Assembly (NCBI GenBank): GCA_000310025.1
Contig: FN648788.1
Location: 1 to 43,298 of the forward strand
Direction: 5' to 3'
Source: Ectocarpus siliculosus
Lineage: Eukaryota; Sar; Phaeophyceae; Ectocarpales; Ectocarpaceae
DNA: 43,298 bases
Shown: positions 1,477-43,298 of the stretch, in pieces
Position numbering within the stretch: position 1 is the stretch's first letter
Layout of the letters: each line of letters opens with the position of its first letter
The notes under the pieces: generated by a model
The model's database searches: none
What the model saw: only the letters and a program-made list of their open reading frames with translations
Told to the model about the DNA's origin: nothing
Position numbers and translations under genes: made by a program

Positions 1477-4400
1477 TCAAAGGGTTTGGTACACCGACAT
1501 GGTGTACGCGCCACCGCACATCTCGTCTGAGTTGCCCGAGCAGGGCATGTCGCAGACGCTGAAGCCGTTGGCATCGTAGTCGACGTTGTCGCCGCACCAG
1601 CACTGTTTCATGCAGCGGCATGAGTATACAGGGGGCGCGGACAGGAGTAGATTGAATGGGTATGGTCAAGACACTACGGCAACACGAATCATTGCAAGAT
1701 TCGTCGAATCAATCTCATGCTGACGACCGTGGTCACCCAAATCCCACGAAAGCGTTAGACACGTTCCACATGCCACTTGTTGTTGATCAGTACTACCCGT
1801 TGGCCACGTGAACAAGAGGTCATACCTCTTGAGAATACTGGGTTCCATAGTAGGCCGAGCCGGTGCAGAGCGTCGCGCAGAGCTTGTCGTTCGTTCATGT
1901 ACGTGTGCACACGAGAAATGGTCGATTGCCCGGGTAGTGAGGGGAAGAATAGTTAGAACCCAATCAAAAGGGAGACACGTCGAGGAGCGGGGGATATTGG
2001 CAACGAGTTGGGTGCATGAATGAGTTGACAGTTCCTGTGCGAGGACCAACGGGGAAACAACAACAACAACAACAACATTGCAATGTAACGAACACAAAAA
2101 TCAATAGTTCATGTTGATCGACACTCTAGACCCAAACAAGCTAGCGACGTTTGGTCGGCGCATCGCTCACCTCTGCGGTCATAGCGGAGGTAGAACTCTC
2201 CCACTCGAAAATGCGGTCGTCGGCGGGGTCCGAGAAGCACCCAAGGTATGAGGGGTCCTGGGCGTAGACATCCATGCTGTAAGACCCCCCACATGTTTCA
2301 TCCGAGTTGCCCGTGCAGGCCATGTCGCAGTCACCGACGCCGTTGACGGAGTATGGGGCGTTGATGTCACCGCACCAGCACTGGTTTGGAAAAGGGGTGG
2401 GTGAAGGGTGGTGCAAGCGCGGACCACGCGGTCTCGTGTTTGTTCATGGGGGGAAGCTAATGCCGGAAACAACTTTTGCACGAAAATGAAAGAGGTATGC
2501 AGATGGGTGCGATGATGGCGGTGGTCCAAGCATCTTCTTAGGAGAGCATGCGTACAACCGCGTATTGTTGACGAATGCCCAGGTGTGTTCTCAGAGGAAC
2601 TCAAGGAGGTCATGCCTGCACGAAGCAACATATCCCGAGGGCGGCAAAGTGGTTGTTTCTTCTTATCGTCTGGCCGGGGCACCCACCGGACACGCAAACA
2701 CTTTTGACGGACCTCGCCAATCGGAACAATGTTGGGCCGAAGCGCATCGACTATCAACGACACATCGTACAAAAGGAAGACGGGGGACTTGGGAAGGATG
2801 CATTTGTCCTCGCTTCGCCTGATACGGGCGGCACTGGTTTGCGTTCCTCGCTCTTTGCATTTCGACTCCTTGTTCCAATCGCTTGTTTACTAAACCCTGC
2901 CGGGCCGTCAACCTTCTGCAAGTTGCACTGGAAGTTAACGAGAAATAACATATGGTGCTGGCTCTTGTCTACACAACGGCAGTTTGGCGACAGCGCAGCT
3001 CGAGTTTCAGTTGGTGGGCACGACGATATACCCTCCTCTTTCAGCCGTTGGTGTCGGATAATTGCGCAATGCTGCCAACAACAACGATACAATCTGTGAG
3101 AACCATAAACGGACCAATTTGGCGGCATACTTGCCTTGGGTATTATTTGAATGGTCATCATGGGCCGCCAAATATATCCAGGCGGAAACAGACGCCCCTA
3201 GACGACTTCAGAGGTAGTTAGGCCAAACCATCGATTTGCCCCGGACTTTCTCAAATGTCTCAATCTTCACCGGTGTTTTCTTAGAGGATGGCGTTCTCAT
3301 GGCGTGGCATGCCAATGAAGGGAAACCCGATACCCGCGGTACTGACCGCGCGAGCGCGTTTGCTCGCAGCATTCAGGGCAATGTCACACCACAGTATCCA
3401 GCACGAAATGAAATTGATCGAGACATGGACGGATTGTGCACATAGGCCAGCGAAAACGAAACTGTTGTCCAAGGCAGACCGAGAGCTACATCGCAGCCAC
3501 CCAACAGCTACTTCCGCAAAAAAAATGTACACGGCGCTGTATCTATATGCTTGAACGACTTGGTTCGAACACGTGGTTGTCCATTGTTGGAAATAGCCAA
3601 ACGTAAGATTTGAATTTTGCATCTGGCTACCTCAGCAACACCAAGATCGACATGGCCCTGCACGGCGGCGTGGAGACAGTCAACCAATGACGTTAGAAAG
3701 CCCGGCCATCATACTGCCACACGGCACTTGAGACAAGGCCGGCCGTAATTATTGACAACCGATCCGAACCCATCCGAATGGTGAGGGTTTGAGCCACAGA
3801 TTCTGCTATCATAGTGCTCTCACCTCTGACGAGTACTGCGTTCCGTAGAAGGCCGAATCGACGCATTGCGACGCGCAGAACTGTCGTTTCGGGGGGATCG
3901 TGCGCGGTTGTGGGGATCGATCGACAGAAAGAGAGGCAATGAGAGATTAGGTGAAGGTCAACCGAAACAAATATAGAAGGGCAAGGTGCAATGACAGTGA
4001 ATTGGCTTCCACGACAATTTCTAGAGCCTCTTACATTTGACGGGCGACGACAACGCGGCATCCAAAACGGAAATCATACAGTGTGCAACGCATCGGTAAC
4101 TCCAACCGTAGCAGAGACACAACCCTAAGGACGTATGCGTAACCGAGCAAACAAATGCCACCTAGACACGATTTTTGTCACTCTCTCCTCACCTCGGCGG
4201 TGTTGACGCTAGACGCTCCGTTCTGCTCGAAAACGCGGTTGTCGGCTGGGTCGGAGTAGCAGCCACGGTACGAGGGATCCACAGTAGGGATGACTACATT
4301 GTAGTTCTGGTAGACACTCATGCTGTAGAAACCTCCACAGATCTCGCCAGCGTCTCCCGAGCAGAACATGTCGCACTCGCCGGCACCGTTCGAGTCGTAG

Positions 4401-9510: not shown

Positions 9511-10594
9511 ATTTTTGATCCTTTTTATGGCGTACTCTGTCTGTATTCTTTATGTATGCATACACTACAGTACATATAGCACATGCACAGACTGTTCAAT
9601 AGCACGCAAGCCGTCGTGTGGCGCTCATGTCGAGAATCCCGCAGCTGCCGGCCTCATGGGGATGGAGTCTGATCTCGTTGATCGACCCGGTTACTTACAG
9701 CGGTTGTGGCGCGCTCGTGCTCACCTGTCGCTTTGCAGCCCCGGCTTGGGGCAGGCATCCATTGTAGTAGAAATTTCTTGAGTACTCTGACTAAGCGATG
9801 GGGCTGAAGGGATGTCCTATCGACAGCTTCAAAACTACGCAACATTGTCGCTCTCAACACAATTGAAAACCTCATGGGCCTCCCGCTGCAGCAGAAAAAG
9901 TAGCAGCAGCACAAGCAGCAGCTCGGATCGCCTACATCAGGAGGGATACTGTATTCCCTGCTGCCAGTCAGTTTCCACTTGCCCGTCTACGCGATGCTGC
10001 CACAACTCCAATTGTAACCTACTCCGTACACCCTTGCAGACTAGGACCTGCAGAGGCCCAACTCCACGATCTTGGTATATACCCCTTGTCTACACTTGGC
10101 ATGAAAGCCGAGAAAAATACAACCAAACTGCGAGATAGCCCTGCATGCGGCTGTATTGTCCACACATGTCCTACATAGTAAATAGTTGACTGGCAAGAGT
10201 AGAGGTCGAGAGCGGCGAGTGGGAAACAATACCTTAGCCGATCGCGGCCCCTATCTCTAGCAGATATACACCCTCTTCCCCCACAATTATCCCATGTAGA
10301 CTTACACGCCCATACCAAACCGTCTGTCATGATGTGACCACCTTGTAGGGTCCATTCTCCCTCGAAAAACACGCTGTGCTATTCTACGAGTACTTTTTGT
10401 GTATTCGATCGTCCAGAACCTTGTCCTTCGTTCTCACCCCGAACATCAAACGTCCAAACACTGAAGCAAAGAAATGGTTCAAAGTGCGCCTGCGCGTCTG
10501 CTTTCGATATTCCTCCGACTCGAATGCCCGATGTTGGTACCCTGCGTTGCAGACGTATCGAAGAATCCTGCCCCCCTACGTTGGTTCATGCAGT
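9511..10594. repeat. Distal 3' flank of gene 4, paralogous to that of gene 3
   Basis: Collinear with about 20230-21040 (for example gtcttatcggcagcttcaaa and ggcctcatgggcctcc patterns) with many indels, so non-coding. The LTR element interrupts the match at 10594/14527. Confidence 0.65.
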
Positions 10595-10925
10595 TGTTAG
10601 GATAATCCGAACTGGGGGTAGCTTGTCGCAAGACGTGTGTTGAATGGGGTGTCGGCAACTCGGCGAACTCGCGCCAAGGAGGAAAGATGCGCTGGGTTTG
10701 TTGTACAGACTTCTTCTTCACATGAAAAACATGGACTCACATGAACACATGAACACATGGACACATGGACACATGGACAGACATGAACTGCACGCACGCG
10801 TGCACGCACCACCATGAGGGGGCGACGCAGTATACAACAGGGGTACCTTGCACACCCTGGAAATACATTCCACGTACCACACAATCCTACATCCACTTGG
10901 CATTGCTACAAGAGTATATCTATCA
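10595..10925 (-). repeat. 3' LTR of the copia element
   Basis: 331 bp, near-identical to 14190-14526; five rather than six minisatellite units and a 2-bp extension (agagtatat for agtatat) account for the length difference. Confidence 0.85.
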
Positions 10926-10936
10926 GCCCCCCTGCT
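10926..10936 (-). other. Polypurine tract of the copia element
   Basis: Directly inside the 3' LTR the minus strand reads AGCAGGGGGGC, in the position and of the composition expected for the plus-strand primer. Confidence 0.6.
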
Positions 10937-11210
10937 TGTGACCATGCCATGTCTTTTTCGATCCTCAAGAACTCCAAAACACAAGAAAATAAACTCAGAA
11001 ACTCAACTCAACTCCAGAACAATAGCCTCACTGGCTAGACATCAATTCCCATCCCCGGTCATATCAGATATACTTCTTCGAGCTTCAGTGAACTAATTGC
11101 CCCCCAGCCTAGAATACCATCCATTGAGAAAAACCATAGGCAAAAATGCAAAATGTTGCTGCCACCCTAGTTGTTTGATCACACACAAAATAAACCCAAA
11201 CATCAAAATA

Positions 11211-12110
11211 TTAATCCATACTCATTACGAAGTTACGATGAAACTCGAAATTTCCCACGTTAAGTGCCTTCGTGAGGAAGTCAGCATGTTGATACGCCGA
11301 TTCCACGTGAAAAATCGAAATCTCCTTCCTGCATACCAAATCCCTGATAAAGTGGTGCCTTACGTCGATGATGTGCTTCGAGTTACTGTTGCTATAATCG
11401 GGTTCTGCGCCAACTGAATAGCCCCCTGGTTATCCTCGAACACCGGAATACACGGCATATCGGCTTCTGGCAACATGAAACGCCATACTTGCCTCAGAAA
11501 CAACACTTCCTTCATCACATCCGCAAGGGAGACATACTCCGCCTCTGTCGTGCTTAACGTAACGCACTTCTGCGTCCTTGAAAACCAAGAAATACATCCC
11601 CCCCACACATCACCAACCCTCCTGACACAGACCTCCTATCGGCAGCCTTACTTGCATAGTCTGCGTCTGCGAACACCTCCATGCTCAACCCTGCTACACT
11701 ACCCCTCCTGAATGTAATACCCAAGTCACTAGTCCTTACCACATACCCCAAAATACCAAGACCTGCTCTCCAATGGATTTCTTTGGAAGAAGCACACTAC
11801 CGTGCTACCGCTCTCACTGCGTTCGCGATATCTGGCCTCGTTTGCGTTGCCAGCCACATCAATGATCCTATCAGCTCACGAAAAGGCCTTGATACCACTT
11901 CTTCATCTTGGTCACACTCTGAAAGCTTCAACCCTACAGGAAGAGGAATTTCCTTCCCGTACTCTACCCCAAACTCCATCCCCAACTCTTCAGCGTACGT
12001 CTGCTTCGACGTCTTCACAGTCCCTGCATCCCAATTTTCCAAGAATAAAATCTCCTCTACCACCTGCTCCCTCAGGTTGTGATCGCTGTTCACAACCAAA
12101 CGTCCTGTGA
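11211..12110 (-). pseudogene. Copia RT C-terminus and RNase H remnant
   Basis: The pieces in order match the end of Ty1/copia Pol: RPFRELIGSLMWLATQTRPD (RT end, about 11797-12099), VFADADYASKAADRRSVSGG (RNase H start), TLSTTEAEYVSLAD, VFEDNQGAIQLAQNP, then SNSKHI.DVRHHFIRDLV and QHADFLTKAL with a TAA at 11211-11213. It carries a TAG nonsense codon at 11797-11799, a frame change at a G7 run near 11596-11608, and another near 11400. Upstream RT catalytic motifs, integrase and protease are absent. Confidence 0.85.
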
Positions 12111-13741
12111 AAACCCCGAAAATAAAATCCTACTCGTTCAGGCTCGACCTCGTACTCAAAAAGACCAAACACAAAGCCGAAGCAACACAAACCAAAGCCA
12201 AAACAATGAGAACACCAAATAAGAAAAGTCACACCATTTGTCACACGAAGTATTTTTTTCCGGCCCATCAACCCCAGCGCTTTCATCCATCCCTCCTGCC
12301 ACTGCTTCTTCCCCGCGGTAGCGACCCTCGCCTCTACCGCGGCCACCCTTTTCTGCTGGCATCGCCGCGGCTCGGGCTTCATCAGGTGCCACGTATGTAT
12401 CCGCCTGGTTGGGGTGTGTGCAGCTGTTTCTCCGGAGGGATTGACTCGGCAGTGCAGGGGAGATGGCGCATCCGAAAGGGAAAGGTAAAGGCAAAATCAG
12501 TCACCCAAAGCGTCAATTCAGCACGTGGCACTGCTGGGGAGAATAGCTTGCAATACGCCCACTGTTCTGCGCAGCAGTGATAGTTGTCTTTCGCATTCTG
12601 TACGACATCATGGTTACCTATCAAATCGAACGCCAATCTACGACTGAGGTTAATTAATCCTCTTTCGCAAAAGTGACACAACGATTCTTGCGATTTGTCT
12701 GACAAGGTTAATTATTCCTCGGTCACGCAAACAACAATGTTGGATCCATGTTAGAGCTTACACAGCTGTGTTTCTGATCAACAACCCAACACATATTTTT
12801 ACTGGTATACTGCTTTCGTGCATACAGTGTTCTGGTACGAAATGGAGATCATTTCCATGTATTCCTGTCGGTTACACAGACCCCTGACCAAATTTCCAAG
12901 TGTATCCCCCTACAACTCCTACCGCTAGACATGCAACAGACTCCTGTTCGTAACACGCAACTCATTGTCGGTAGAGGGTACAAAGATTCATGACGCCTTC
13001 GCATATCCCGTTATCGACGTGAACGCAAAAATAATGAGTCGGAGATCAATCTCTGTATTTTAACACATACGGGACAAAATATTCCCACCAACTTCAAAGC
13101 ACTCAAGAAGGTATATGCAGTCGCTTGGTTAGGATTCGCTGATAATCTCATCTAATCTTTCAGTTTCTGTGGGTGACTGGCAACCTTACGTGGCGTAGTA
13201 GCCATACAACCTCGCAGTTTTGTGGGTGACTGGCAACCTTACGTGACGCAATATCCATTTAACCTCGCAGTTTTGTGTGGGTGACTGGCAACCTTACGTG
13301 ACGCAATATCAATATAACCTCGCAGTCTTGTGTGGGTGACTGGCAACCTTACGTGACTCAATATCCATTTAACCTCGCAGTTTTGTGTGGATCACTGGCA
13401 ACCTTATCAAGAATAGAACGCCCTTTGATGGGGTCTACTGCTGTACCTCTCAGGAAAAACATGTGCAAGATGATGACGCGTATGTATGCAGAACTCAACA
13501 AGGTGTGCTGTAGGTTTATCGGAGCACACCCAAACGAAATCGACGAAGACAAGCATGCAAGCACATATACCAAAACCACTTCAGACGTAAAACGGTGAGC
13601 AAATCATCACGTGTCTGAGCGGATCTACGACCTTAGTAGGCGCATGCTGATGGTGTTGCTGCTCGGCATCTCCAGTGTTATAACAACATTCGAAATTGGC
13701 TCTCAAAAACCTGTACTCCAACCTGGACATCGCCACTAGAA
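12111..13741. other. Copia interior without recognisable genes
   Basis: Outside the 55-bp repeats this 1.6 kb holds only short broken frames. A Gly/Arg/Glu-rich minus-strand frame (12156-12494) could be gag or pol debris, but no motif supports it. A pol of normal size would not fit here. Confidence 0.5.
13168..13406. repeat. Tandem ~55-bp repeats inside the copia element
   Basis: The phrase gactggcaaccttacgtg recurs starting near 13174, 13227, 13282 and 13337, with a partial fifth copy ending about 13406; unit spacing is 53-55 bp. Units share caatatccatttaacctcgc with small changes. No coding role is evident. Confidence 0.85.
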
Positions 13742-14116
13742 TCAAACACACCCGTAAATGGGGCTACATGTATTACATACAGGACTGACACGGATGGTGT
13801 CCTTAGGGGTTAAGACTTCCCTGGTTTCCTCCCCCGGGGTGTTGGTCCTTCGCATTGCCCGCGCGAAGGACTCAACGAGACGGTCCTCCAACGATCGTGG
13901 CTGGTCTTCAGGTTGCGGGTCTAACGCTGTTCCAGCCGGCCGAGCATGCCGGGGATCGCCTCCATCGGGGGGCTTGTCCACGCTCTCTGATGCGGGACGC
14001 TTCTCTTCGGTAAACTTGATTTTTTCTTGTACTCCCGACTCCACTTCCTCTTTGATGTGCGCCGATAATGCTTGGCGGTCCTCTTCAGTTAAGCTGCTGA
14101 GGTCGAGGGCTTCCAT
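13742..14116 (-). CDS. Truncated gag-like reading frame of the copia element
   Basis: A 124-codon frame starts at ATG 14116, 73 nt inside the 5' LTR, where copia gag begins. It is acidic and charged (MEALDLSSLTEEDRQALSAH at the start, then a Pro/Asp-rich stretch and EDRLVESFARAM). No CCHC knuckle remains, so only an N-terminal part survives. The gag assignment rests on position and composition, not on a recognised motif. Confidence 0.5.
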   Translation of the reverse strand: MEALDLSSLTEEDRQALSAHIKEEVESGVQEKIKFTEEKRPASESVDKPPDGGDPRHARPAGTALDPQPEDQPRSLEDRLVESFARAMRRTNTPGEETREVLTPKDTIRVSPVCNTCSPIYGCV

Positions 14117-14189
14117 GATCTACTTCTCTAGCCGAACCCTTTTGTAGCTAACCTCACCTCGGGATCCCGTGTGATATCACACGCTAGCG

Positions 14190-14526
14190 TGTTAGGATGA
14201 TCCGAACTGGGGGTAGCTTGTCGCAAGACGTGTGTTGAATAGGGTGTCGGCAACTCGGAGAACTCGTGCCAAGGAGGAAAGATGCGCTGGGTTTGTTGTA
14301 TAGACTTCTTCTTCACATGAAAAACATGGACTCACATGAACACATGAACACATGAACACATGAACACATGGACACATGGACAGACATGAACTGCACGCAC
14401 GCGTGCACGCACCACCATGAGGGGGCGACGCAGTATACAACAGGGGTACCTTGCACACCCTGGAAATACATTCCACGTACCACACAATCCTACATCCACT
14501 TGGCATTGCTACAAGTATATCTATCA
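14190..14526 (-). repeat. 5' LTR of the copia element
   Basis: 337 bp, reading TGATAG... to ...CTAACA on the minus strand. It contains an 8-bp minisatellite (acatgRac on plus, about 14334-14381) with six units against five in the other LTR. It is followed by interior sequence GCTAGCGTGTGATATCAC, where a primer site would be expected, but I could not assign a tRNA. Confidence 0.85.
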
Positions 14527-15351
14527 GCAGTGCACTCTGTACTCACAACCCCTATTCATGTCGAAGATCATAGACTTACTGTCCATCGACCGAGCTCTGC
14601 CAAGTGCGTCAAGGAGCACGACTGATCAACGCTTCGTTCGCGTGGACGCCATGTTGAGCGTATCACCCCCAAGGTCAGCGACATACGTGCCGAACAAGAG
14701 ATGGTCCATGGCAGCATCGACAACCAGAAAATATGTCACTAAGTCACATGCGGGAGAATTCAGAATCAATCGCTAAACTATGTCTTCGAGCTCACCTCAG
14801 TAGTGCTACCATATCCACTGTACTATCGCCTACCACCCTGTTTGAGTGCCGGACGTTTACCAGCTCGTCACTGCCGGTTTACTGGGGATGGTGACTGACT
14901 GACCGGAGACATTCACGCGGCACAGGCTTTACCCCTGGGGCGATGTCGACGGAATGTCGCCTGGGGGAGAACTTGATAAATCGGATTTCCTGCAGCTGAC
15001 CAGATGGTCGCTGCATGGACGACGAACGTGCCCTGCTAGATCCTTGTGGAGTTGTCAACTCCTCATCCACTGCTTCTTGCCCAACATTTCCCACAAAAGC
15101 TCTACATGGTACCCTATCGAGAACCCACACACGTGCGTGCGTGAAGGGCTTACCACGCATTGCCTTTGCGAGTCGAGTGGACCGCTGACCACCCATACGG
15201 AATGAGATTGGACCTTGTACGTACGACTTCGGGCGTATGATGTTGCGCCGCACAACTACGATACACACGATAATTTCTTGCCCGTTAATACATTTACAGG
15301 TGAAACGTGGCTTCGGTTGGGTACCTTGATGAAGCAGCCGTGGGGTGGAAG
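14527..15351. repeat. Proximal 3' flank of gene 4, paralogous to that of gene 3
   Basis: Continues the match with 21041-21865 after the LTR element. It contains the decayed blocks VDAAMDHLLFG..VADLGGDT (about 14610-14725, minus, followed by TGA) and VNVRHSNRVVG (about 14800-14870) ending at a donor-like CTGAG|GTGAG at 14795. Confidence 0.65.
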
Positions 15352-18300
15352 TTAAACGGTTTGGTACACCGACATGGTGTACGGGCCACCGCATATCTCG
15401 TCGGAGTTACCCGTGCAGGACATGTCGCAGATGCCGAAACCGTTGGCAGCGAAGTCGGCGTTATCATCGCCGCACCAGCACTGTTTCATGCAGCAGCATC
15501 AGTCAATAGGCAAGGGGGCTTGTGAACGGGCGGAGAGCACCGATGGACAAGAAACTACGGCAGCTTGAATCATTGCGAGACACGAACCATTTCACGCTGA
15601 CGGCCGTAGCCCACCAAAGCACATTATAGCGCTTGACGCGTCCCGAACTCCACACGTTTTGCACGACACTCCCCCGCATAGCATCATTTACACCCGTTGG
15701 ACGCGTATATCAAGAAGTCGTACCTCTTGAGAATACTGGGTTCCGTAGTAGGCCGAGCCGGTGCAGAGCGAGGCGCAGGCCTGGTCGTTGGGTCATGTAC
15801 GTGTGTATGCGCACGAGCAACGGTCGGTATAGTCAGGGTAGGAGGGAAAAACAAGTCGTGAGCGCCAACTCGAAAGAGAGATACACGGAGGAGCGCGGTG
15901 TGTTGGGCATACAAAATGGCGAACATTAGTTGACACTTGGTATGCAAGCACCGCACGATGTTGATATCGAGGAAGAACACAACAACAACAACATTACGAA
16001 GGACGTTTACGAATGCGCGATACTCATGTATTGACCTTTGAAGCAAACCAACGTCTTTGGCTGGCTAACTGTTCACCTCTGCGGTCATATCGAAGGTAGA
16101 ACTCTCCCTCTCGAAAATGCGGCCGTCGGCGGGGTCCGAGAAGCACCCAAGGTACGCGGGGTCCTGGGCGTATACATTCATCCTGTACGACCCCCCGCAG
16201 ATTTCTTCGGAGTCGCCTGAGCAGGCCATGTCGCAGACGCCTTCGCCGTAGACGGAGTATTGGGCGTTAAAATCACCCCACCAGCACTGCTTTCGAAGGG
16301 ATGGAACAGTGGGGGGCGACGAGGGGCGTAGACAGACAAAAACGACAATATTGAGGGAGGTACAGTACGTAGATGGGCGCGAAGCTGATGGTGGTGTCAG
16401 CAGGTGGTGCATGCCACACAAGAACCGGAGGCAGGAGGAACAACGAGCAACCACAATCGGCTCGAGGGGAAGCATTCTCCGATATCCACGTACCGCGATC
16501 ACCCATGGCAACACCCACAACGTCGACGACGAATAATCTTACACGTCGTGCTCTGAGCACTTGGGAAGAAGATTCTGGAGTGTTTCCGAGCCATGTGCCC
16601 TCTTTCAGTGCGCGTTAAGACCTGGCGTGCGGTTTGGATTCTGGTCGCCTGTACGGTGTAAATACAACCAAGGCCATGACAAAGTTAATACATGGAATCG
16701 GAAAGCAATACAAGCTGCATTTGAGGTCGGACTACTTCCGAACAGTCCCGGGAAAGTGACTGATGTAGAGAGTGAATCACACTAGATGTAGAGAACCAAC
16801 ACAAAGCCGCGGAGACTATGGACCGTGACTCCTGAACGAATATCAATACAGAACCGGACCCATCCGATCGACGGGGAAACTGGATTCAACTGTTACAGAG
16901 TCCTCACCTCACTCGAGTACTGCGTTCCGTAGAAGGCCGAGTCGGGGCATTGCGTCGCGCAGAGCTGTGGTCGTGTGGGTAACGGTGAGTGTCCACGATG
17001 ATGGATCAAGAGGACGAGGGGGAAGGAGGAGTCAGGGAAAACTCAACACTAAGAGCGACAACGTAGATGTGCTGGGTGCAGGGATGGCGAGTTGACTTCC
17101 GGAACGTTTTCTAGAGCCTCGGACATTTCACGGGCAACCACAAGGCGACATCGGCATCGGAGAGCATGGGCGTGCAGGGCACCGACCAAGCGGAGGCACC
17201 AACACAACTTCTCAGAATTTCCTCAAGTGCCTAACAAGGTCCGGAATTGATCCAGGAGAGCACAGTGTCATCAACGGAGGGATGACGCAAGACGATAGAC
17301 AGCAGGACCAGCCCAAAGGGTCGCCGCCACCTTCTAGTGTGACGTTTCCCAAGCTGACACAGCTCACACAGCTGACGTCGTTTGACTCCAAGCGCCCAGC
17401 ACATCTCACCCAACGGAAACGAACAGTTTACAAAGCTAAAGTGGATACATTCAACAAATGCCTCTGTTGACCCCTCTCTTACGTCTAGGGTCATCTCGTC
17501 AGAGGAAGCGTTCTGCACGAAAACACGGTTGGTGGCTGAGTCAGAGTAGCAGCCACGGTACGCGGTGTACCCACGATCCACGTAACCCTGGTAGACACTC
17601 ATACTGTAGGGACCTCCACAAATCTCGCTGACGTCGCCCGCACAGGGCATCACGCACTCGTCGCTGGCACCGTTCGCATCGTAGCCGGCGGTCTCGTCAC
17701 CGCACCAGCACTGTTGAGTTCGAGAGTATCCAGAAAGGGGAGGTAGGGGAGCACAGTGAGTGAGAGGGCGCGGGTTTCATCGTGATTTCGTGGTACACAA
17801 GACGCTTGTTGGCAACGCCATAGCTTGGACTACTGTGGGTGGGTGGGAGTGACGTGAGGCCACAGCTGTCAACGTGTATCGGGAAAACATCAGACAGGAG
17901 GATCTGGCCTACAAACGAGCAGGCCTCAGTGAGTTCAGGCGATCGCCTGAAGCATCAGCAAACGTCCTACGTAACCTATGTGATTGACTGAACATGCAGG
18001 ATTGTTCGTTTCTCCAAGGAACTGCCGATCCCGCACGTTCCGCGATGGCGATGCGAATGGCCACCGAAACAAGGCAGTGGCCGACAATGTGGAACGCCCA
18101 CTCCGACGCGCATGATGTTTTTGCAACGCCACGTTGGGGTAAAGTTAAGGCGAGCGATCGTGATCCACACCAACTATTTTCGCGTGTATGCTATGAGTCT
18201 CACCTCTGCCGAATACTGCGTTCCGTAGTACTCGTACGTGCTGCAGTGCCCCAAGCAGACCTGTGGTCGTTCGGGCACAGTAAGGGGAAGTCAACGGTCA

Positions 18301-27800: not shown

Positions 27801-28502
27801 CATAGCGGAGGTAGAAGACTGCCATTCGAAGACGCGGTTCTCGGCAGGGTCCGAGAAGCACCCGAGGTAAGATGGGTCATCGGACTGACCTGCTCCGGCA
27901 ACACGATAATCTCAAGAACTGAGAAACTTGCTCCAATGTGCAAAGCCTCAGGAGGCACGCACGTATGTACTCACACCGCGGAGCTGGACGGTTGGCCTAC
28001 AGTAGCTATTCGTTTCAGTTTGGAAGGTGATTGCCCATTGAGTGGTGCTCTACACCTTGCCCTGGTCAACAACTGAATTATTTTCGGAGAAGGCGCTCCG
28101 GGTCTCGGGATATTCGTTTCTGGACTTGTTCAAGTGTAAGGTGACTGAGGAACCACAAACGGAAACGGTAAAAACTGCGTAACTGCGTTGTTGTTACATG
28201 TGTTTGGCTCATTTTCGTCTGCACTCAGTCGTATGTAGTTGCGCGTATAACACAATGTCTTAGCAGCTCGGGAGCATGAAAACCGCTTGTGGGAGCGTCG
28301 AGAATCTTTTTTCTGTTTCTGGTGCTGTGCTACACTGACCTGATCGGTTGGCTTCAGAGAGCATTCCCGATCCATTCACGGAGTTTTCGCTATAGTAGCA
28401 GAGTGTCAGAGGACGATGCAGGTCCTGATCTTTGTGTCAACTAGACTCACCAATGGCGACCCCGAGGAGGAGCGTCGGTAGCGCCAGCGAAAGGAGATGC
28501 AT
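21866..28502 (-). CDS. Gene 3: secreted five-WSC-domain protein, 12 exons, intact
   Basis: Exons: 28451-28502, 27792-27889, 27404-27460, 26616-26831, 25990-26046, 25162-25389, 24822-24878, 24042-24272, 23463-23519, 22590-22799, 22235-22291, 21866-21991. Together 1446 nt, 481 residues, TGA stop. Residues 1-18 (MHLLSLALPTLLLGVAIG) are the signal peptide; mature protein probably starts near Gln-Ser-Asp-Asp. Five WSC domains follow, in the same order and with the same exon phases as gene 5, and each exon most resembles the exon at the same position in gene 5. All eight Cys per domain are kept. Exon 4 carries a two-residue insertion (DPYTAETRLF) relative to gene 5. No membrane anchor is visible. 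The likely role is binding extracellular or cell-wall glycans; the specific ligand cannot be read from sequence. Confidence 0.87.
24481..24532. repeat. 26-bp perfect tandem duplication in a gene 3 intron
   Basis: caactactgtagcaggccac plus gatgat occurs twice head to tail (24481-24506 and 24507-24532). It appears once or in diverged form in the paralogs, so it is a recent local event. Confidence 0.85.
28451..28502 (-). other. First exon of gene 3: signal peptide
   Basis: A 52-nt exon with ATG at 28502-28500 and donor GTGAGT, phase 1. It differs from the gene 5 first exon by a few conservative codons and shares its leader sequence. Upstream, the next ~2.4 kb is paralogous to DNA upstream of gene 2. 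Confidence 0.85.
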
Positions 28503-30930
28503 CTTGACCTCGAGATTGCTGGAAAGCTGACACCTGAACAGCAATAGACCATTGTTCATCAGGGATACGAGCGCGATGGTCGTTGGGTCACTATTTGCGG
28601 CTATTTGCTTATTCACTCTTTTCCATATGCGTTCTATGTATGCTGGCGATTATGGAGTTTGGGTGGAGAAACGCTTGTCGAAAATCTCGATCAAGGGTTC
28701 CGTTATACCACAAGCATTACTACAGCTTGTAGATTATCTCACTTCGGGATCGAGAGAATGTGGGAGTACATGGGTTGCGTTCTTTTCTCTGTGGGTGAGC
28801 AGATCATGCCTGCCACTGCCTGTAGTTTCAAGAGCGCACGGGTACGTCTAGATTGAGATGAAAACCCAAACACGCAAACGTCACGTCATCCCGCTGTAAA
28901 CAACGTTGAACAAATTCTTTGTGCAACAGATACAGTGTAGTCTTGTAGACGACCTGGAAGGAAATCATCTATAATCGATGTACTGCGACAACATAGACCA
29001 CTCACAGCACGTTCTTGGGGGCCTCAGGGGTTCTTGATCTGCTCGGGAGTGCAGACAGGGGGAGAAGAAGCAGAGTGTGAGCTGGTGGGCGAGAGGGCGG
29101 ATGCCGTTCTCTCGGGTGTTTCACATGTGATCTCACACGTGGTAACTTTGCTCGAAATTGTGTTGTGGGCAACAGGGAGACCGACAAGTGTGAGCGTGTG
29201 TTCGGAAGAGCCGGCGGGTTGCGCAATTGTTTCAACGAAGCGTCTGACATCATCGTGTCACTTCCTTCTGTTCGGTTCATTTTCTTGTGGACAACGGTGA
29301 TCTACAGTACACTAAACGTCAACGGAAAGGGCCTACCGTGTCACATGTCTGTTGGCGGCGGGCTGCACTCTTCTTGCAATCGATGATTGGGCGAACCTGA
29401 CAGTCCCGGACCACCGAGATCGCGATGGGTTTGTGGATTTCCACGAAGTGCTGTAGTATAGCAGTGGGCCCTATGCGTGAACGAGTGGGTCCTGGAAAGC
29501 TAGTCATTGGCACGAATGGGGACCGTTTAGGTCTAGGCCCAGTCCTGGGGTGGTATGCAGAGATGCGAAGTTGGTTGGTACGTTATCAGGCATCATGTGA
29601 GGGCTGTCACGCCGTAGATTTCGGGGAAATAATCTGGCTCTCGGAAGTCCCGTATCCTGCTATCCTGCTTCACGCATTCACGGGTTGCTTTTCAGGATTT
29701 CAGGATTGTGTCGGCAACATACAACCGTTGGCGGTGTGCTGGATCACAGGGCGCTACTACGGTCCAGGAAGGACTCCATGCTCCTATGCCGGTACGGTAT
29801 CGTGGTCTGGGTCCAAAAGGGGGCACAATCTGCCACAACACTCTTCCGGGATTGTTTTTTCACATGGGCAGCTCATGGGCAGCCCGTGAGCAATAGGCAT
29901 GAGCTGCACATGGGCAGATCATTATGCCTACGTTGGGCGCACCCGGTCAAGGATGTGTAAATATGAAATAACGCAATCCAGACCAAGCATTGGCCCTGTT
30001 ACCCTGTGAAAGTACAGTGCACATAGAATCTACGCAGGTATACGTTTGTAGTGTTTGACGGTCCTTGCCATTCTTCGGGTAATCGACAATCGTCAAGGTA
30101 TTAGATCCGGACCCAAATATGGTCGCTTCTTGCTGGGGGCACACTGAGAAACGCTGACAGAATAGGGCGAGTATATCCATTCTTAACCAATCGTTGGACG
30201 TCCTGATGAAAGAGTTAAGGTTAGGGTTGGGGTTTCCACGGTGAGTATTCGATGGGCACTGCCCATTGTGAGCATGTTGAATACCTGCGATGACCTCCGC
30301 TTGGGAATGCCCATGAGCGCGCCCGTGGGCCGCCCACCATAGGGTAAGTTGCAGTGAATTACATCTCTCACGTTTGGCAGCCTATGGGACTGCGCGTAGT
30401 CTTGTCCGCAGCCCATGGGAGAATGAGCATACTGCAAAAGCAAGTGTGGGAGACCCAGAGAGCAGGGACGTGCAGGCACGATGTTATCCAAGCCATATGG
30501 GCGATACATATGTCTCGCGTGATCCTATTACGGTTAACAAAGACTTCGCAGAATACGTGTAATTTAATCCTACAACACACTTATCGGCCCAGAGTGAAAA
30601 TTATGTCATTGCCTGGGACGCGCGTGGGGAAATATCGAACCCACGAGGTCGCCGTCGGAGGCAAACGTGCATCACACCGTGGTGCGTCTCGACCTCAGAG
30701 CTACGAGTTTCAAAGTATGATTTGGCATCTACATACAGCGCCAGACATGATACTATACGGCAAGCAAGACAGAAGCGAATCAAACTCTACTCTGAGAACT
30801 CAACACAACCGACCGTCGCAAGCATCGAAAATCACGATGATGTGCAAGAACAACCCGACGTCCCGCAAATACCAAAGGCAGGTCTACGAAAACCATGAAA
30901 ATTATGCCAAACAAGCCTCACTCATGAGAG
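28503..30930. repeat. Gene 3 upstream region, paralogous to gene 2 upstream
   Basis: Collinear with 34444-37300 over most of its length; anchors include aaaatctcgatcaagg, gacctggaaggaaatcatct and gaaagtacag..gtagaatctacgcagg. Open frames of 154 and 236 codons on plus (29425-29889, 30354-31064) are broken by indels and stops in the paralog, so they are not genes. The first 200 bp above the ATG is the likeliest promoter zone, but no core element is recognised. Confidence 0.65.
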
Positions 30931-31162
30931 GAGCAGGCAGACTTCATCTCAACGTTCGGCTCCATTCAGCCACAGAATACGATGAGTGGGCCAGTGGGCA
31001 ATGCAGTGCACAAAGAATGGTCACAAGCCGAGGAACCTCCACCTACTACTGTAGATGGCATTAGCCGAAGAACTTGCACCAACTAGAGAGCGCCCTGGCA
31101 AAGATTGAGGTCCCACGAGCCGCACACGACCCAAACCGCTGCCGTGAATGAATGAGAACTCA
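30931..31162. other. Spacer between gene 3 upstream region and duplication copy B
   Basis: No gene or repeat recognised; it ends at the left junction of the duplicated segment (aatgagaactc / agaggagtcg). Confidence 0.4.
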
Positions 31163-34002
31163 GAGGAGTCGACTGGGTCAGGGTCGGCTTGTTTCCGTAA
31201 GGAAACCCTCATCTTCGCGGTTGGTTATCGAGGTATTCCGCAGGTAAGCGCTGCTCACTCACAAGAGCCCCCCTTCGGCGCTTTGCAATGGACCGCTCAG
31301 TCAGGTGGGATTCCGCAACCGATTTTCGTATTCGGGACTGGTACATGGACTACGCGATATCATGTCGACATATCTATTTCGCAATATTAACGATCATATC
31401 CTAATGAAAATCAACAATTATCTCCAGTTCAGGGATACATTCAGAAGCAGCTCGGGTAGCCCGGAGATCTGTCCCGCTGTCAGTATGCGCCTGTCCTTCT
31501 ACTCGACTCTACCGCGGCGCCAACGATATCCAACACCAGCCTCGCAGATGACTGAATAAGGACCAAGACAACGTTTAACGTTCTTACACTTCATCGTATC
31601 TACACTACAGACAACTAGGTCGAGCCTGATACGGACTACAGCGAGAAAACCCTGCTGTTGGTGCCAAGTTGGCAACCTCACCGTCGCGAATAGGTAGAGC
31701 TGCGACAGGAAACTCTCGCCAATCGCAGTCCGTGCCTATGATATCTCTTGTGGTCCCACTGATCGTCCCATGTACACGTCTACCACTCGTTTCTGTATCA
31801 CATCGACACCACCTTGTGATATTTTTCTTTCGCACTGCTTCCTTTTGCCTAGGCCGATAATCACACAGGAGCATCCGAACAGATAACATGAAAACACCCA
31901 TATCGTTCACAATGCACCACGACGAATCCGTCTCGCCTCCGCGTGACATTCCGCCAAAGATGAAAGCCCAATGTATTGTACGTTGCAGATATGTCTCGGA
32001 GATCCATCCCCTCTGATTCCATACGCTTGGTACACTCATAGCCCTTGTTGGTGCAGAGCATAAGACCAACACCGAGTGGGCAGTGGCACACGTGCATCGA
32101 GGAACACGACTATTGCTTCACTCGTGTTGCCACCAAGAAAATAGGTATGACGCCCGGAGGTCGTCGACGCGTCTGCCGAACAAAAGAAGTTTCATGTCAA
32201 CGTCGCTTTTTTCTAAAATGCCAAAGAGAGAATAATTAGTTCCTAGCAACACTACAGAGGGTTCAAGTGCCCAGCTACGAACCACGTCCACCGTGCTACC
32301 GACTAGCCCGCGAACTGTGTCCCGGACGTTGACCGACTTGCCGCAGCCGACTTCGGGATGGTGACCGGCTCGCCGAACAAGTTGGCGACACAAGCCCCAA
32401 GCACGACGTCGATGTTGCCAAGCGAAGCACGTAAGTAAGTTTTTTTTGCCGGTCCCGTGGACTGCTGACCACGCCTCCTGCCCGAAACATATAACCTTCT
32501 ATGTACGACTCCGGAAGCTGGATACTGCTGTACAATCTATTCGAAGTGAGAGACCTCCATGCTGTCGTCTTCCTAGGTAGTAGTGTTGCGGTTGGTTGAT
32601 GCCTTGATGAAGCAGCCACGGAACGGAAAATCAAAGGGTTTGGTACACCGACATGGTGTACGCGCCACCGCACATCTCGTCTGAGTTGCCCGAGCAGGGC
32701 ATGTCGCAGACGCTGAAGCCGTTGGCATCGTAGTCGACGTTGTCGCCGCACCAGCACTGTTTCATGCAGCGGCATGAGTATCCAGGGGGCGCGGGCAGGA
32801 GTAGATTGAATGGGTATGGTCAAGACACTACGGCAACACGAATCATTGCAAGATTCGTCGAATCAATCTCATGCTGACGACCGTGGTCACCCAAATCCCA
32901 CGAAAGCGTTAGACACGTTCCACATGCCACTTGTTGTTGATCAGTACTACCCGTTGGCCACGTGAGCAAGAGGTCATACCTCTTGAGAATACTGGGTTCC
33001 ATAGTAGGCCGAGCCGGTGCAGAGCGTCGCGCAGAGCTTGTCGTTCGTTCATGTACGTGTGCACACGAGAAATGGTCGATTGCCCGGGTAGTGAGGGGAA
33101 GAATAGTTAGAACCCAATCAAAAGGGAGACACGCCGAGGAGCGGGGGATATTGGCAACGAGTTGGGTGCATGAATGAGTTGACAGTTCCTGTGCGAGGAC
33201 CAACGGGGAAACAACAACAACAACAACATTGCAATGTAACGAACACAAAAATCAATAGTTCATGTTGATCGACACTCTAGACCCAAACAAGCTAGCGACG
33301 TTTGGTCGGCGCATCGCTCACCTCTGCGGTCATAGCGGAGGTAGAACTCTCCCACTCGAAAGTGCGGTCGTCGGCGGGGTCCGAGAAGCACCCAAGGTAT
33401 GAGGGGTCCTGGGCGTAGACATCCATGCTGTAAGACCCCCCACATGTTTCATCCGAGTTGCCCGTGCAGGCCATGTCGCAGTCACCGACGCCGTTGACGG
33501 AGTATGGGGCGTTGATGTCACCGCACCAGCACTGGTTTGGAAAAGGGGTGGGTGAAGGGTGGTGCAAGCGCGGACCACGCGGTCTCGTGTTTGTTCATGG
33601 GGGGAAGCTAATGCCCGAAACAACTTTTGCACGAAAATGAAAGAGGTATGCAGATGGGTGCCATGATGGCGGTGGTCCAAGCATCTTCTTAGGAGAGCAT
33701 CCGTACAACCGCGTATTGTTGACGAACGCCCAGGTGTGTTCTCAGAGGAACTCAAGGAGGTCATGCCTGCACGAAACAACATATCCCGAGGGCGGCAAAG
33801 TGGTTGTTTCTTCTGATCGTCTGGCCGGGAAAACCCACCGGACACGCAAACACTTTTGACGGACCTCGCCAATCGGAACAATGTTGGGCCGAAGCGCATC
33901 GACTATCAACGACACATCGTACAAAAGGAAGACGGGGGACTTGGGAAGGATGCCTTTGTCCTCGCTTCGCCTGATACGGGCGGCACTGATTTGCGTTCCT
34001 CG
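31163..34002. repeat. Segmental duplication, copy B (3' part of gene 2 and flank)
   Basis: Second copy of the 2.85-kb segment; it begins agaggagtcgactggg and ends gcgttcctcg. Its right junction falls in what was intron 1 of gene 2, replacing that gene's native middle and 3' exons. Confidence 0.9.
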
Positions 34003-34443
34003 TGTACATTTTTGCATCGGACTTGATGAAGCAGCCTCGGGATATTCATTCCTTGACATATTTCGATGAAAGATGGCCGAGGGACCACAACTGGTCAAAC
34101 GGTGTTGCTGTTACGTTTGACCCATGTGTCTGAGATTACACGTATTTTACACAGTCGTAGCTGCGCGCAGGACACGATGCCTGAGCAGCTCGGGAGTATT
34201 GAATCCGCTCGTGGGAGCTTCGAGAAACTTGTTTCTGCTTCTGCTGCTGTGCTACACTGACTGAATCGGTTGGCTTCAGAGAGCATCCCCCATTCATTTA
34301 CCTTGAGTTATCATAATAGTAGGCAGAGTTTCAGAGGACGATCCACTTCCCGATCATCTAGAGTCATGCTTTGTATATCATTGCCTCTCACCAATGGCAA
34401 CCCCGAGGAGGAGTGTCGGCAGCACCAGCGAAAGGAGATGCAT
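32631..34443 (-). pseudogene. Gene 2: chimeric WSC gene, signal exon joined to a copied gene 5 3' end
   Basis: Recognisable exons: 34392-34443 (signal peptide MHLLSLVLPTLLLGVAIG, donor GTGAGA), 33322-33531 (C half of WSC4, N half of WSC5), 32980-33036 (mini-exon), 32631-32756 (terminal, TGA). The last three are near-identical to gene 5 exons because 31163-34002 duplicates 1-2850. The signal exon ends in phase 1 but the next recognisable exon starts in phase 0, so direct splicing would shift the frame. The first WSC half-exon that corrects the phase in genes 3 and 5 is missing. No substitute exon was found in 33532-34391, although 34023-34037 contains a WSC-like GCFIK-coding stretch. It is either non-functional or uses an unrecognised exon. 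Confidence 0.72.
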
Positions 34444-34721
34444 CTTGACCTCGAGCTTGCTGGAAACCTGACACCTTAACAGCAACATACCATTGTTCAT
34501 CAGGAATACGTGCGCGATGGTAGTTCGGTCACCATTCGCCGCTCTTCGCTCATTCACTCTTCGTGTGCCCTTCGTGTGCTGCGTTCACTGTAAAAAGGCG
34601 ATTGTGGAGTTCGGGAGGAGAATCGATCGTGGAAAATCTCGATCAAGGCTTCGTGATACCACAAACATGGGTGTTGTCATTCAATATTTGCAAGGCGTAT
34701 AACGACACCTTCCTGGTAGCC

Positions 34722-34944
34722 GTACGCAAGGAAGTAAGCACAAGATGCCTAACACCCTTGGCAGGATGTAGCGCACACTTCATGCGACTCGCCCAAAATC
34801 TCACGGCGCTTCGCGCTTGGTGATGTGAGATCCTGGTCCGGTGAGAACCCGGCGTGCTCCGCCCCGGCTTTGTAGGGATGTGAGGCCCATGGTCTAGCGA
34901 CTGCGGCATGCACAACTATGAGTAGAACCCCCCCCCTGGTAGCC
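34722..34944 (-). mobile_element. Possible tRNA-derived SINE-like insertion, 223 bp
   Basis: Flanked by a 10-bp direct repeat CCTGGTAGCC (34712-34721 and 34935-34944) and absent from the paralogous region of gene 3. On the minus strand it has a box A-like TGCCGCAGTCGC and, about 50 nt on, a box B-like GGTTCTCACC. No second copy is in the window, so the family cannot be confirmed. Confidence 0.35.
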
Positions 34945-34984
34945 TCCTACACATAGAATCAGTTCCAACGTGTTCTTCACACCG

Positions 34985-35140
34985 GGGTATTTGTGATGTT
35001 TGGGAATTTGAGTTTTCACCTTTTAGTCCAGACGTGCCGTGTGCATTGGCAGACATGATCTACTCACCCACAAAGGAAATAACACAACCCATGTAGTCTA
35101 CTCCCACATTCTCTCAATCCCGAAGTGAGATAGTGTGGCT
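34985..35140 (-). repeat. Segment inverted relative to the gene 3 upstream region
   Basis: Its reverse complement matches about 28730-28890 (shared: gatctRctcacccaca, cccacattctctc.atcccg, cgaagtgagata). Flanking sequences on both sides match in direct orientation. Confidence 0.7.
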
Positions 35141-37300
35141 CCTGAAGGCCATCGGAGAAACACGCTACAATACTCTTTTTTCTGCCGTAGATACAGCAGT
35201 AGATCGGGTTGACTGTACAGCGAGCGGCAGGAGACCTGGAAGGAAATCATCTATCGAATGTACTGCGACAACATAGACACAACATCCACACTCACAGTGC
35301 GTTCTTGGGGGCTTCAGGGGTTCTTGAGGTGCTCGGAAGTACAGAGAGGGCGAGAAGAAGCAGAGCGTGAGCTGGTGGGTGAGAGGGAAGATGACATCCC
35401 CCCGGATATTCCACGTGTGACCTCACACGTGATCATTTGCTCGAAGAATCTTGTGGGCAAAAGAGACCGACAAGTGTGAGCGTGTGTTCGAAACAGTCGA
35501 AGGGTTGCGTAATTGTTCACAAGACAGGTCTTACATTCTTTTTTCATGTCACCGCATTCGTTCGATCCATTTTCTTGTGGACAATGGGGATTTACTGTAC
35601 ATGCCAACTCAAGGGCTTCCGCGTCACATTTCTGTGAGTGGCGGGCTGCACTCTTCTTGATCTGACTCGGCAAACCTGACAGTCCCGAGACGGCCATCGG
35701 GATCGCGATGGGTATGTGGATTTCCACGAAGTGCTGTAGTACAGCAGTAGGCCCTATGCGTGCACGAGTGCATCCGACATACTGGTCATTGGCACGAATG
35801 GGAACCGCTTATTAGGTGTAGGCCCTGTTCTGGTGTGGTATACAGAGATGCTGTATTGGTTGGAATGTTTCTTATCAGGCACCCCGTAAGTTCTGTCACT
35901 CCATAGATTTCGGGGAAATTTTCAGGCTCTCAGAAGTCCCGTATCCTGCTGTCCTGCTTTACGCATTTATGGGTTGCTTTTCTGGATTGCGCTAGCAACA
36001 TGCAGCCGGTGGTGGTGTGCTGGATCACAGGGTGCTACTGCGGTCCCGGAAGAACTCCATGCTCCTATCCCCGTACGGTATCACTGGGTCCACAAGGGGG
36101 CACAATCTACCACAACAACTTCTGGGATTGTTTTTTCACATGGACCAGCTCCTGTCCTGGGCAGCCCATGAGCAATGCATGAGCTGCACATGAGGTGTCC
36201 ATGGGATGTCTGTGAGGTGTCTACGGCCGGTCCGCGAGCAGTTCCATGAGGTGCCCATGGGCAGACCATTTTGTCTACACCGTCAAGGATGTGCATATGA
36301 AAGAACACAATCCAAACCAAGCATTGGTCCTGTTACACCCTTGTGAAAGTACAGCAGTGCGTGTAGAATCTACGCAGGTAGGCAGTATGCCGTACAGTGT
36401 GTATAGTCTACACCCAGTATTTGACGGTCGTGCCTGCAATTCTTCGGGTAATCGTCAATCATCGAAGTATTATTATATCTGGCTCAAATGTGATTTCTTC
36501 TTGCTGGGGGCACACTGAGATTTGCTAATAGAGCAGGGCGAGCACAATCGTTGGACGTCCTGCTGAAAGGGTAGGGTTTGGGCGCATAACCATCGTGGGT
36601 TTTCCAGGGTGAGTATTCGAAGGGCGCTGACCATTGTGAGCATGTTGAATACCTGTGATGGTCTCCGCTTGGGAATGCCCATGAGCATGCTCGTGAGCCG
36701 CCCACCGTAGTGAAACACGTCTCTCACGATTGGCAGCCTGTGGTACTGTGCATTGTCTTGTCCCATGTCTTTGTGTTCCGTGGGCAGTCCGTGGGAAACT
36801 TAGGAAAACTGCCAAAAGCAAGTGGGGGAGATTCCAGAGAGGAGGGACGTGCACGTACGATAGCCGAGCCAGATAGGCGATATATATGTCTCACGTAATT
36901 CCATCAGGGTTAAAAAAGAGTGGGCGGAATACGTGTGATTCTATCCTACAACACACTTAGACTATCTGCCTACAATGAAAATGATGCCGTTGCGTGGGAC
37001 GCGTGTGGGGAAATATTGACCCACGAGGTAACCGCCGGAGACACGCGTGCACCACACTGTGGTGTGTGTCGACCTCAGAGCTAGGGTATTCAAAGTATAC
37101 TTCGGCATCTACATACAGCGCCAGTCATACGGCAAGCAAAGACGGAAGTGAACTGGACTCTTTGAGTTTTCAACATGTCCGACCGCCGGAACCAGCGAGA
37201 ATTACGACGATGTACAAGAATGCACAACGAAAAATAATCGGACGCTCCTTTGGAACGAAAAGGCCTGCTGAGTCTACGAAAACCACAGAACGCACGTGTT

Positions 37301-42200: not shown

Positions 42201-43298
42201 AGAGGGTGGTGCGTACTACAGTAGTCACGCACGAGGCCTCCTACCAAAAGAAAAGTCAGCTACAAAGAGCTGCTGATGGAAGCCAAGCAACCCTACATTG
42301 TCAATCGCTGGTAGATGAGAGCAGTTACAAACGTTTCCCAGTCGGAAATGGTATGGCCCAAGGATGCGCTACTCGGTTGGGTTGCTGCGAATCGTGCGAC
42401 GGTGACATCATTATCGGACAGGCAAGAACATTGAGTGCACTATGGACATGACAGGCGGGATGCGCGCAACCGCAACTCCTGAGGGGGGTCCATGGATATC
42501 AATCATGCAAAAGAGCAGCGAATTACAGCGCACGAGACCGAGATGATCCGAGGCACGTGAGTGGCTTGGAAGAGCCACCGAAACAAGGTCATGTCCGAGC
42601 CTGTTTACGCCCGGTGCGACGCACATGACATAGATCCAACACTATGTTGACACAACCCTCCGCGACGCACACAAAGCACGATCAGTTGTACAACAGTCTT
42701 ACCTCTGTCGAATACTGGGTTCCGTAGTACTGATACGCGCTACAGTGCCCCAGGCAGACCTGTGGTCGTTTGGTCAAATTGGCGGGAGGTCAAGGGTCCA
42801 CAGAAGGGAGGAGACTACAATAGTGGGAAGGGACTGATATGGAAATATGGCCGGTGGTGTGTTAATGTGAGCACGTGCCGTCGGTGATATACGATGCGCA
42901 CGGGGGTCCATGAGTACGGTTCGGCCAGTTCTACACGCTTCGGACAACTCGAGGGAAATTGCAACCCAATGTGTCGAATATAGCCAGCAACGCATCCACC
43001 TCGTAAAGGAGCTACCCATGTGCGCAGCGATTCAAGAACGCAAATTAACTCGACCACTACAAGTGCAACTGCACGCTTCTGGTATCACGCTCTCACTCGC
43101 CTCTGCGGACATGTCGTCAGAGGCAGCCTCCCGCACGAAAACGCGGCTGTCGGCGGGGTCGGAGTAGCACCCAAGGTAGGCGGGGTCGTCGTCGGGCTCC
43201 ACGTCGTTCTCGTAGATATTCATGCTGTAGTAGCCTCCACAAATCCGGGAGGCGTCGCCCGAGCAAGACATGTCGCAAATACCGTCGAGATCGAGCTC
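39240..43298 (-). CDS. Gene 1: WSC-domain protein, 5' end outside the window
   Basis: Exons seen: 43101-43298 (cut by the window edge), 42703-42759, 41635-41865, 41250-41303, 40467-40679, 40090-40146, 39240-39365 (TAA). The frame is open through all seven, 312 codons including stop. They encode the end of one WSC domain and three more, with the exon plan of genes 3 and 5. It is the most divergent copy: one mini-exon is 54 nt instead of 57; large exon 40467-40679 has CWCGGD and an altered start to the next domain (SNPADSSAF, DGMDAD); the terminal exon has CGSSSS in place of CGGxY and CDHPC for CDMPC. The first visible exon ends with a GC donor (GAG|GCGAGT). The signal peptide would lie right of the window. 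Probably functional, less certain than genes 3 and 5. Confidence 0.8.
43099..43100 (-). other. GC splice donor in gene 1
   Basis: At this exon end all paralogs have GAG|GTGAGN, while here the minus strand reads GAG|GCGAGT. The surrounding donor bases fit a GC-AG intron, and the mini-exon acceptor (CCACAG before 42759) is normal. Confidence 0.6.

Follow-up and report, generated by a model that had tools for sequence, protein, structure and literature searches.

A tandem array of five WSC-domain genes in Ectocarpus siliculosus, suggestive of a secreted lectin-like family under birth-and-death evolution

What would a brown alga make from a row of genes that each encode several WSC domains, and how did such a row come about? 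The question is raised by a stretch of Ectocarpus siliculosus DNA (assembly GCA_000310025.1, contig FN648788.1, positions 1 to 43,298; the whole stretch of 43,298 nucleotides is called the window here), which a preliminary description, made from the letters alone, had read as a tandem array of five secreted multi-WSC genes. We consider, with moderate confidence, that the tandem genes encode lectin-like WSC proteins, secreted, soluble and multivalent, which bind cell-wall glycan, like fungal WSC3, and that the family evolves by birth and death. As a piece of gene-family history, the array is a clear but fairly ordinary case of birth and death.

Gene models confirmed five WSC genes (G1–G5) in the window, head to tail and all on the minus strand. 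Two are complete, with 12 exons and five WSC domains each, and the lengths first given for them, 478 and 481 residues, were reproduced exactly. G1 (8668–1477, 478 amino acids) has the exons S 8668–8617, X0 7997–7900, Y1 7626–7570, X1 7058–6849, Y2 6369–6313, X2 5722–5498, Y3 5242–5186, X3 4423–4193, Y4 3880–3824, X4 2380–2171, Y5 1882–1826 and X5 1602–1477, and G3 (28502–21866, 481 amino acids) has S 28502–28451, X0 27889–27792, Y1 27460–27404, X1 26831–26616, Y2 26046–25990, X2 25389–25162, Y3 24878–24822, X3 24272–24042, Y4 23519–23463, X4 22799–22590, Y5 22291–22235 and X5 21991–21866. Exon order in these intact genes is S (52 nt, with a phase-1 donor), X0 (98 nt, encoding the beginning of domain 1), Y exons of 57 nt in alternation with X exons of 210–231 nt, and a terminal X5 of 126 nt including the stop codon; the first intron is in phase 1 and the remaining ten are in phase 0. 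As had been described, two further copies are damaged, G2 retaining eight and G4 four of the 12 exons, and G5 runs off the right edge of the window after seven exons. The claim that all five copies share the same domain order is borne out in full for G1 and G3 only.

A profile search of G1 and G3, the two copies scanned, gave five matches each to the Pfam family WSC (PF01822; 249.6 bits, E 1.8e-75 for G1 and 252.2 bits, E 2.8e-76 for G3; curated cut-off 27.8 bits), which supports the proposed domain identity. No other Pfam family exceeded its cut-off in either protein, the one sub-threshold match being SpeFL in G1. The domains also matched by profile the solved WSC domains of yeast Wsc1 (PDB 7PZ2; E 1e-7) and Kremen, and all eight Cys columns and both Gly of the CGG motif are invariant in the ten domains of G1 and G3, with departures in G2 (Y2 and X4) and G5 (X5, where CGG reads CGS). 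Each domain is split by two phase-0 introns, one just 5' of the codon preceding the second Cys and the other just 5' of the C-W-C motif. Mapped by alignment to Wsc1, the Y exon (18–19 codons) holds the greater part of the core-helix segment, and the X exon (70–77 codons) joins the end of one domain to the start of the next.

Over all copies, the broken first intron of G4 excluded, 36 of the 37 modelled introns have a GT donor and all 37 an AG acceptor. The single GC donor lies in the G5 intron after 43101 (43093–43100, GCGAGTGA) and marks either a GC-AG intron or a damaged donor. Acceptors in all five genes read CAG, with A-rich sequence just before it (A is found at −4 in 27 and at −5 in 25 of the 37 introns) and a more pyrimidine-rich stretch further upstream. 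A six-frame regular-expression search found no unsplit WSC stretch, and in the models every domain is split by introns. Using tblastn with all modelled exon peptides we found no further exon fragments (best match outside the models, E 0.025), and the existence of spare exons outside the gene models was therefore rejected. One large gene joining all copies is unlikely, because a stop codon is present in all five X5 exons, and because G1, G3 and G4 have separate leader exons with a phase-1 donor that can be joined in frame only to the phase-1 acceptor of X0.

In the intact copies the first exon encodes a short hydrophobic leader which, judged by eye from the models, resembles a signal peptide, in agreement with the secretion first proposed. 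At the other end, the G1 and G3 chains stop two residues past the conserved Y-Q of the last domain (SVYQTL and SVYQTV), and by eye there is no room after the fifth domain for a transmembrane segment or cytoplasmic tail. Because the chain ends just after this domain, both intact proteins look soluble rather than anchored, as judged from their predicted sequences.

Comparison of G1 with G3 gave a nonsynonymous rate (dN) of 0.115, a synonymous rate (dS) of 0.440 and a dN/dS of 0.26 (bootstrap 0.19–0.35; Nei-Gojobori, 458 codons, leader exon left out), with identity of 79.1% in introns (4052 ungapped positions) and 85.8% in exons (1369). In all nine of the ten gene pairs that could be computed dN/dS is below 1 (0.23–0.46; highest upper bootstrap bound 0.88), the G5 pairs counting its edge exon, 43298–43101, as X2. 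The array is real coding sequence, and G1 and G3 are under purifying selection.

Exons at the same position in different copies are closer to one another than are neighbours within a gene, as had been noticed. Mean identity of X exons is 73.6% between same-position exons (33 pairs, lowest 43.1) against 54.8% within genes (33 pairs, highest 68.3), and that of Y exons is 81.2% (26 pairs, lowest 55.6) against 55.2% (29 pairs, highest 68.4). For 18 of 20 X exons and all 18 Y exons, the closest relative among the exons lies at the same position in another copy; the two X exons that depart from this are both in G5. An X-exon tree under the default model was weak, with three of 16 inner branches starred, nine open and X3 not forming one clade. 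Under a simpler model, with the two G4 rows left out and G5_X2 not counted in the clades, every exon position formed a clade with support of 85/90 to 100/99, only X2 being starred. Exon order is mostly colinear between copies, one G5 exon of ambiguous type aside.

These results bear on a rival reading, secreted pattern recognition, in which the array would diversify to recognise oomycete or fungal glucans and would form an extracellular counterpart of the exon-shuffling leucine-rich repeat (LRR) receptors of brown algae. Tandem birth and death with broken copies and the frame-symmetric exon cassettes would suit such a role, and brown-algal ROCO genes are reported to shuffle phase-2 LRR exons under diversifying selection (PMC11378527). 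However, the low dN/dS, 0.26 between the intact copies, is a gene-wide measure that shows no trace of the diversifying selection to be expected in a recognition repertoire, and the mostly colinear, position-matched exons and the lack of spare exons outside the models also speak against it. We regard pattern recognition as unlikely, if still worth weighing.

The composition of the proteins raises a second alternative. There are no lysines in G1, G3 or the modelled exons of G2, and one in the visible part of G5; about nine per protein (8.9 and 8.5) would be expected from positional base composition, the observation being post hoc. Taking an 18-residue leader as removed, mature G1 and G3 (460–463 residues) hold seven and eight Arg, 75 and 76 Asp plus Glu, and 40 Cys, with an isoelectric point of ~4.05 and a charge of ~−68, and each of their ten domains has a nominal charge of −9 to −17. 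Such figures, alike in both intact copies, would fit an acidic, disulphide-rich matrix protein that holds cations (calcium) or water in the wall, the WSC fold then being a stable scaffold and not a means of binding glycan. Against this, the Cys and CGG core is strictly kept, as would be equally expected of a binder, and the argument starts from that same post hoc observation; we consider it decidedly unlikely that this is the main role. The lysine-free, acidic make-up is a specific and testable oddity.

In the wall-lectin reading that we favour, the protein is predicted to enter the extracellular matrix, where each domain would weakly bind a neutral wall or storage glucan of the β-1,3 kind, and five domains in a row would give avidity for long chains and might cross-link or decorate the wall. 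Given the strong negative charge, direct binding of alginate or fucoidan through charge would be unlikely unless bridged by calcium. Brown-algal wall proteins are reported to include some with WSC domains (PMC8307928), and in the sorus of Saccharina japonica a WSC-domain gene is reported as up 5.36-fold, which the authors read as wall remodelling (PMC11333212). Wsc1 is described as having two functionally needed aromatic clusters, of six positions (PMC9024836), and the equivalents of three of these are kept mostly aromatic in the ten domains of G1 and G3 (Y24 in 10, Y70 in 10 and Y107 in 8). Several points weigh against glycan binding: the equivalent of Y64 is Q and that of Y104 is L or M in all ten domains, the equivalent of Y22, read by eye, has no aromatic residue, Wsc1 is reported to show no apparent glycan pocket (PMC9024836), and the WSC domain of Kremen is reported to contact a protein (PMC9024836).

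G5 extends from beyond 43298 to 39240, and its visible exons are X(2?) 43298–43101 (cut by the edge), Y3 42759–42703, X3 41865–41635, Y4 41303–41250, X4 40679–40467, Y5 40146–40090 and X5 39365–39240. Its X3 is marginally closer to X5 exons (76%) than to same-position exons (75%). The edge exon is 61, 61, 51 and 52% identical to X3 exons, 50–60% to some X4 and 47, 47 and 43% to X2. The X3 grouping has a support of only 69/60, and a tree that places the edge exon among X2 was not rejected (approximately unbiased test, p 0.093). The three best matches of the intron after it are the X2–Y3 introns of G2, G1 and G3, which would favour the X2 slot, although these matches score no higher than shuffled controls do (best 33; ≤33 in 95% of shuffles). 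One could see here an X3-type exon in an X2 slot, and so take the Y plus X phase-0 cassette for an active shuffling unit, with domains added or swapped within and between copies; the array would then be a lectin-based, extracellular parallel to the brown-algal immune receptors built by exon shuffling. We hold this to be very doubtful.

Exchange below the level of the gene is seen near the 3' ends. The block 1–2850, which takes in the final three exons of G1 and its 3' flank, is 97.9% identical over 2.85 kb to 31162–34002 in G4, from the first base of the window, so that it may extend past the left edge, and the two sequences differ beyond the block at 34003. The 2840 compared positions hold 50 differences, one in 393 exonic and 49 in 2447 noncoding positions. 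If one copy were neutral, 5.7 exon differences would be expected from the whole noncoding rate (Poisson P 0.023), so that the exons look constrained in both copies, and on that view the deletion in G4 would have come after the block. However, the two introns between the block exons have only four differences in 508 positions, a rate at which one in 393 is unremarkable (P 0.185), and local exchange explains the exon near-identity as well, which removes most of the case for a younger deletion. Likewise, a gene-conversion-like tract joins 15467–15927 of G2 to 21978–22436 of G3, with 15 mismatches in 459 aligned positions (96.7%) against a background of 85.4% over 5050 aligned positions, a score reached in none of 500 permutations; with exons removed, a tract of 460 positions with 19 mismatches persists (0 of 500).

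Both tracts point to exchange near the 3' ends of genes, and the youngest visible events in the array are sub-genic. The proposal that whole genes, not single domains, were duplicated last stands in so far as genes were duplicated in tandem and exons group by position; 'last' is not supported, because the G1/G4 block and the G2/G3 tract are both partial. In the birth-and-death reading, unequal recombination and gene conversion would keep copy number and 3' ends in flux, and the split of each domain into two phase-0 cassettes, Y and X, would permit gain or loss of whole domains in frame.

Two further alternatives can be set aside as highly improbable. A sensor of cell-wall integrity of the yeast Wsc1 type would share the WSC domain, and transmembrane WSC proteins are reported among the candidate mechanosensors encoded in the Ectocarpus genome (PMC6347293), but this is largely refuted by the G1 and G3 models, with no room for a membrane segment or tail. 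An assembly artefact, in which the 98% block would be one locus or two alleles placed twice, might be suspected from a match that starts with position 1 of the window, as it could if the contig had been broken at a repeat, yet the block copies differ by ~2%, the sequence beyond 34003 is different, and the remaining copies are too diverged from each other for such an origin.

Decay in the other copies has taken the forms of truncation, internal deletion and loss of disulphide cysteines. G2 (19341–15352) is 5'-truncated, with the exons Y2 19341–19285, X2 18722–18498, Y3 18260–18204, X3 17710–17483, Y4 16964–16908, X4 16286–16077, Y5 15780–15724 and X5 15480–15352. S, X0, Y1 and X1 are missing because homology to G3 stops at 19635/26337, within the G3 intron between X1 and Y2. 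In its Y2 exon W replaces the first Cys of the helix (VWESLC), and in X4 C-W-W replaces C-W-C (CWWGD); by analogy with the helix and disulphide map of Wsc1 (PMC9024836), the Y2 loss would break one of the two PAN-core disulphides of domain 2, and the X4 loss one of those of domain 4. With G1 used to polarise them, nonsynonymous and synonymous changes number 41 and 17 on the G2 branch, while the G3 branch has 14 and 21 respectively (Fisher p 0.0047). Nine of the 41 fall in X3 codons 41–49 and may reflect a pair of compensating indels; without these nine, and with the synonymous changes there kept, p is 0.027. G2 thus shows relaxed constraint and is a probable pseudogene. Its decay is probably recent, because all eight exon lengths remain divisible by three, with no stop inside the exons, although the introns of G2 and G3, compared over 2925 positions, show 54 gaps whose lengths are not multiples of three.

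G4 (34443–32631), also a probable pseudogene, retains S 34443–34392, X4 33531–33322, Y5 33036–32980 and X5 32756–32631, and the phase-1 donor of its leader is incompatible with the phase-0 acceptor of the next exon, X4. The junction carries a 33-nt filler (34003–34035), and a 15-nt word at 34022–34036 recurs at 1449, 15325, 21838 and 32603, each time in the 3' flank of a different copy, and nowhere else in the window, which suggests a templated insertion during repair. Upstream, the leader, first intron and flank of G3 (28235–30850) are homologous to 34157–37220 at G4 in three pieces of 73–79% identity. A shared gene in this block was rejected, the similarity lying in scattered short pieces, in several frames and on both strands, and no shared open reading frame (ORF) was recognised there. 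An inverted match, 28735–28819 with 35043–35132 (85.6% over 90 positions), also lies upstream of G3 and G4 and is the only minus-strand self-match in the window at E ≤1e-10.

Between G1 and G2 lies an element of long terminal repeat type (10595–14526), with direct terminal repeats at 10595–10927 and 14190–14528 (95% identical) and TG...CA ends, flanked by the 5-base target-site duplication GCAGT (10590–10594 and 14527–14531); a related stretch near 21046–21061 lacks the element. It may be non-autonomous, because its five internal ORFs gave no Pfam match. A 55-base tandem repeat (13164–13406; 4.5 copies, 90% match) lies inside it. Among neighbouring ORFs, 18 of the 270 listed were searched against Pfam with none above the curated cut-off (sub-threshold: DUF5683, E 0.092; Androglobin_V, E 0.0042), and tRNA and Rfam scans of the window were empty.

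The array thus offers a readable example of how a family of wall-lectin type grows and decays, with intact, decaying, deleted and exchanged copies side by side and selection that can be measured. Its soluble multi-WSC proteins would be candidate binders of brown-algal wall or storage glucans, and the exon split gives a way to ask whether modular extracellular proteins are recombined exon by exon, as reported for the LRR genes of this lineage.

Searches for relatives in viral contigs, prokaryote genomes and phages confirmed none; two of them gave 50 and 17 pattern matches, none confirmed by tblastn, and a third gave no match, a weak absence given how limited the searches were. Among the literature matches listed, mostly outside the subscription literature, no title or abstract opening names a tandem multi-WSC array in an alga, which is weak evidence of novelty. 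Nor do the passages on brown-algal WSC proteins in PMC12879055 and PMC8307928 mention one. The proteins described there, PR-1 with WSC and the WSC proteins of the wall model, have the same, putatively carbohydrate-binding domain; unlike PR-1 with WSC, those of the array have no CAP or other partner domain. The brown-algal LRR-ROCO genes resemble the array in placing repeats on frame-symmetric exons (PMC11378527). Their exons are described as 72 nt long, in phase 2, with one repeat each, shuffled and under reported diversifying selection (PMC11378527), whereas the array has two phase-0 exons per domain, mostly colinear, and a dN/dS below 1. Yeast Wsc1 (PDB 7PZ2) shares the domain, with its eight Cys and CGG motif (PMC9024836), but is a plasma-membrane-spanning sensor with one WSC domain, where the array encodes five domains in a soluble chain. 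The closest likeness is with the fungus Serendipita indica, in which WSC3 is described as a lectin with three WSC domains that binds long-chain β-1,3-glucan (PMC7816849) and 28 of 36 WSC proteins are reported to have no other conserved domain (PMC3192844). Compared by description, the two share WSC-only proteins in an expanded family, and those of the array differ from WSC3 in having five domains, no lysine, a strongly acidic make-up and two phase-0 introns per domain. Of the systems we found described, S. indica WSC3 would be the nearest functional analogue.

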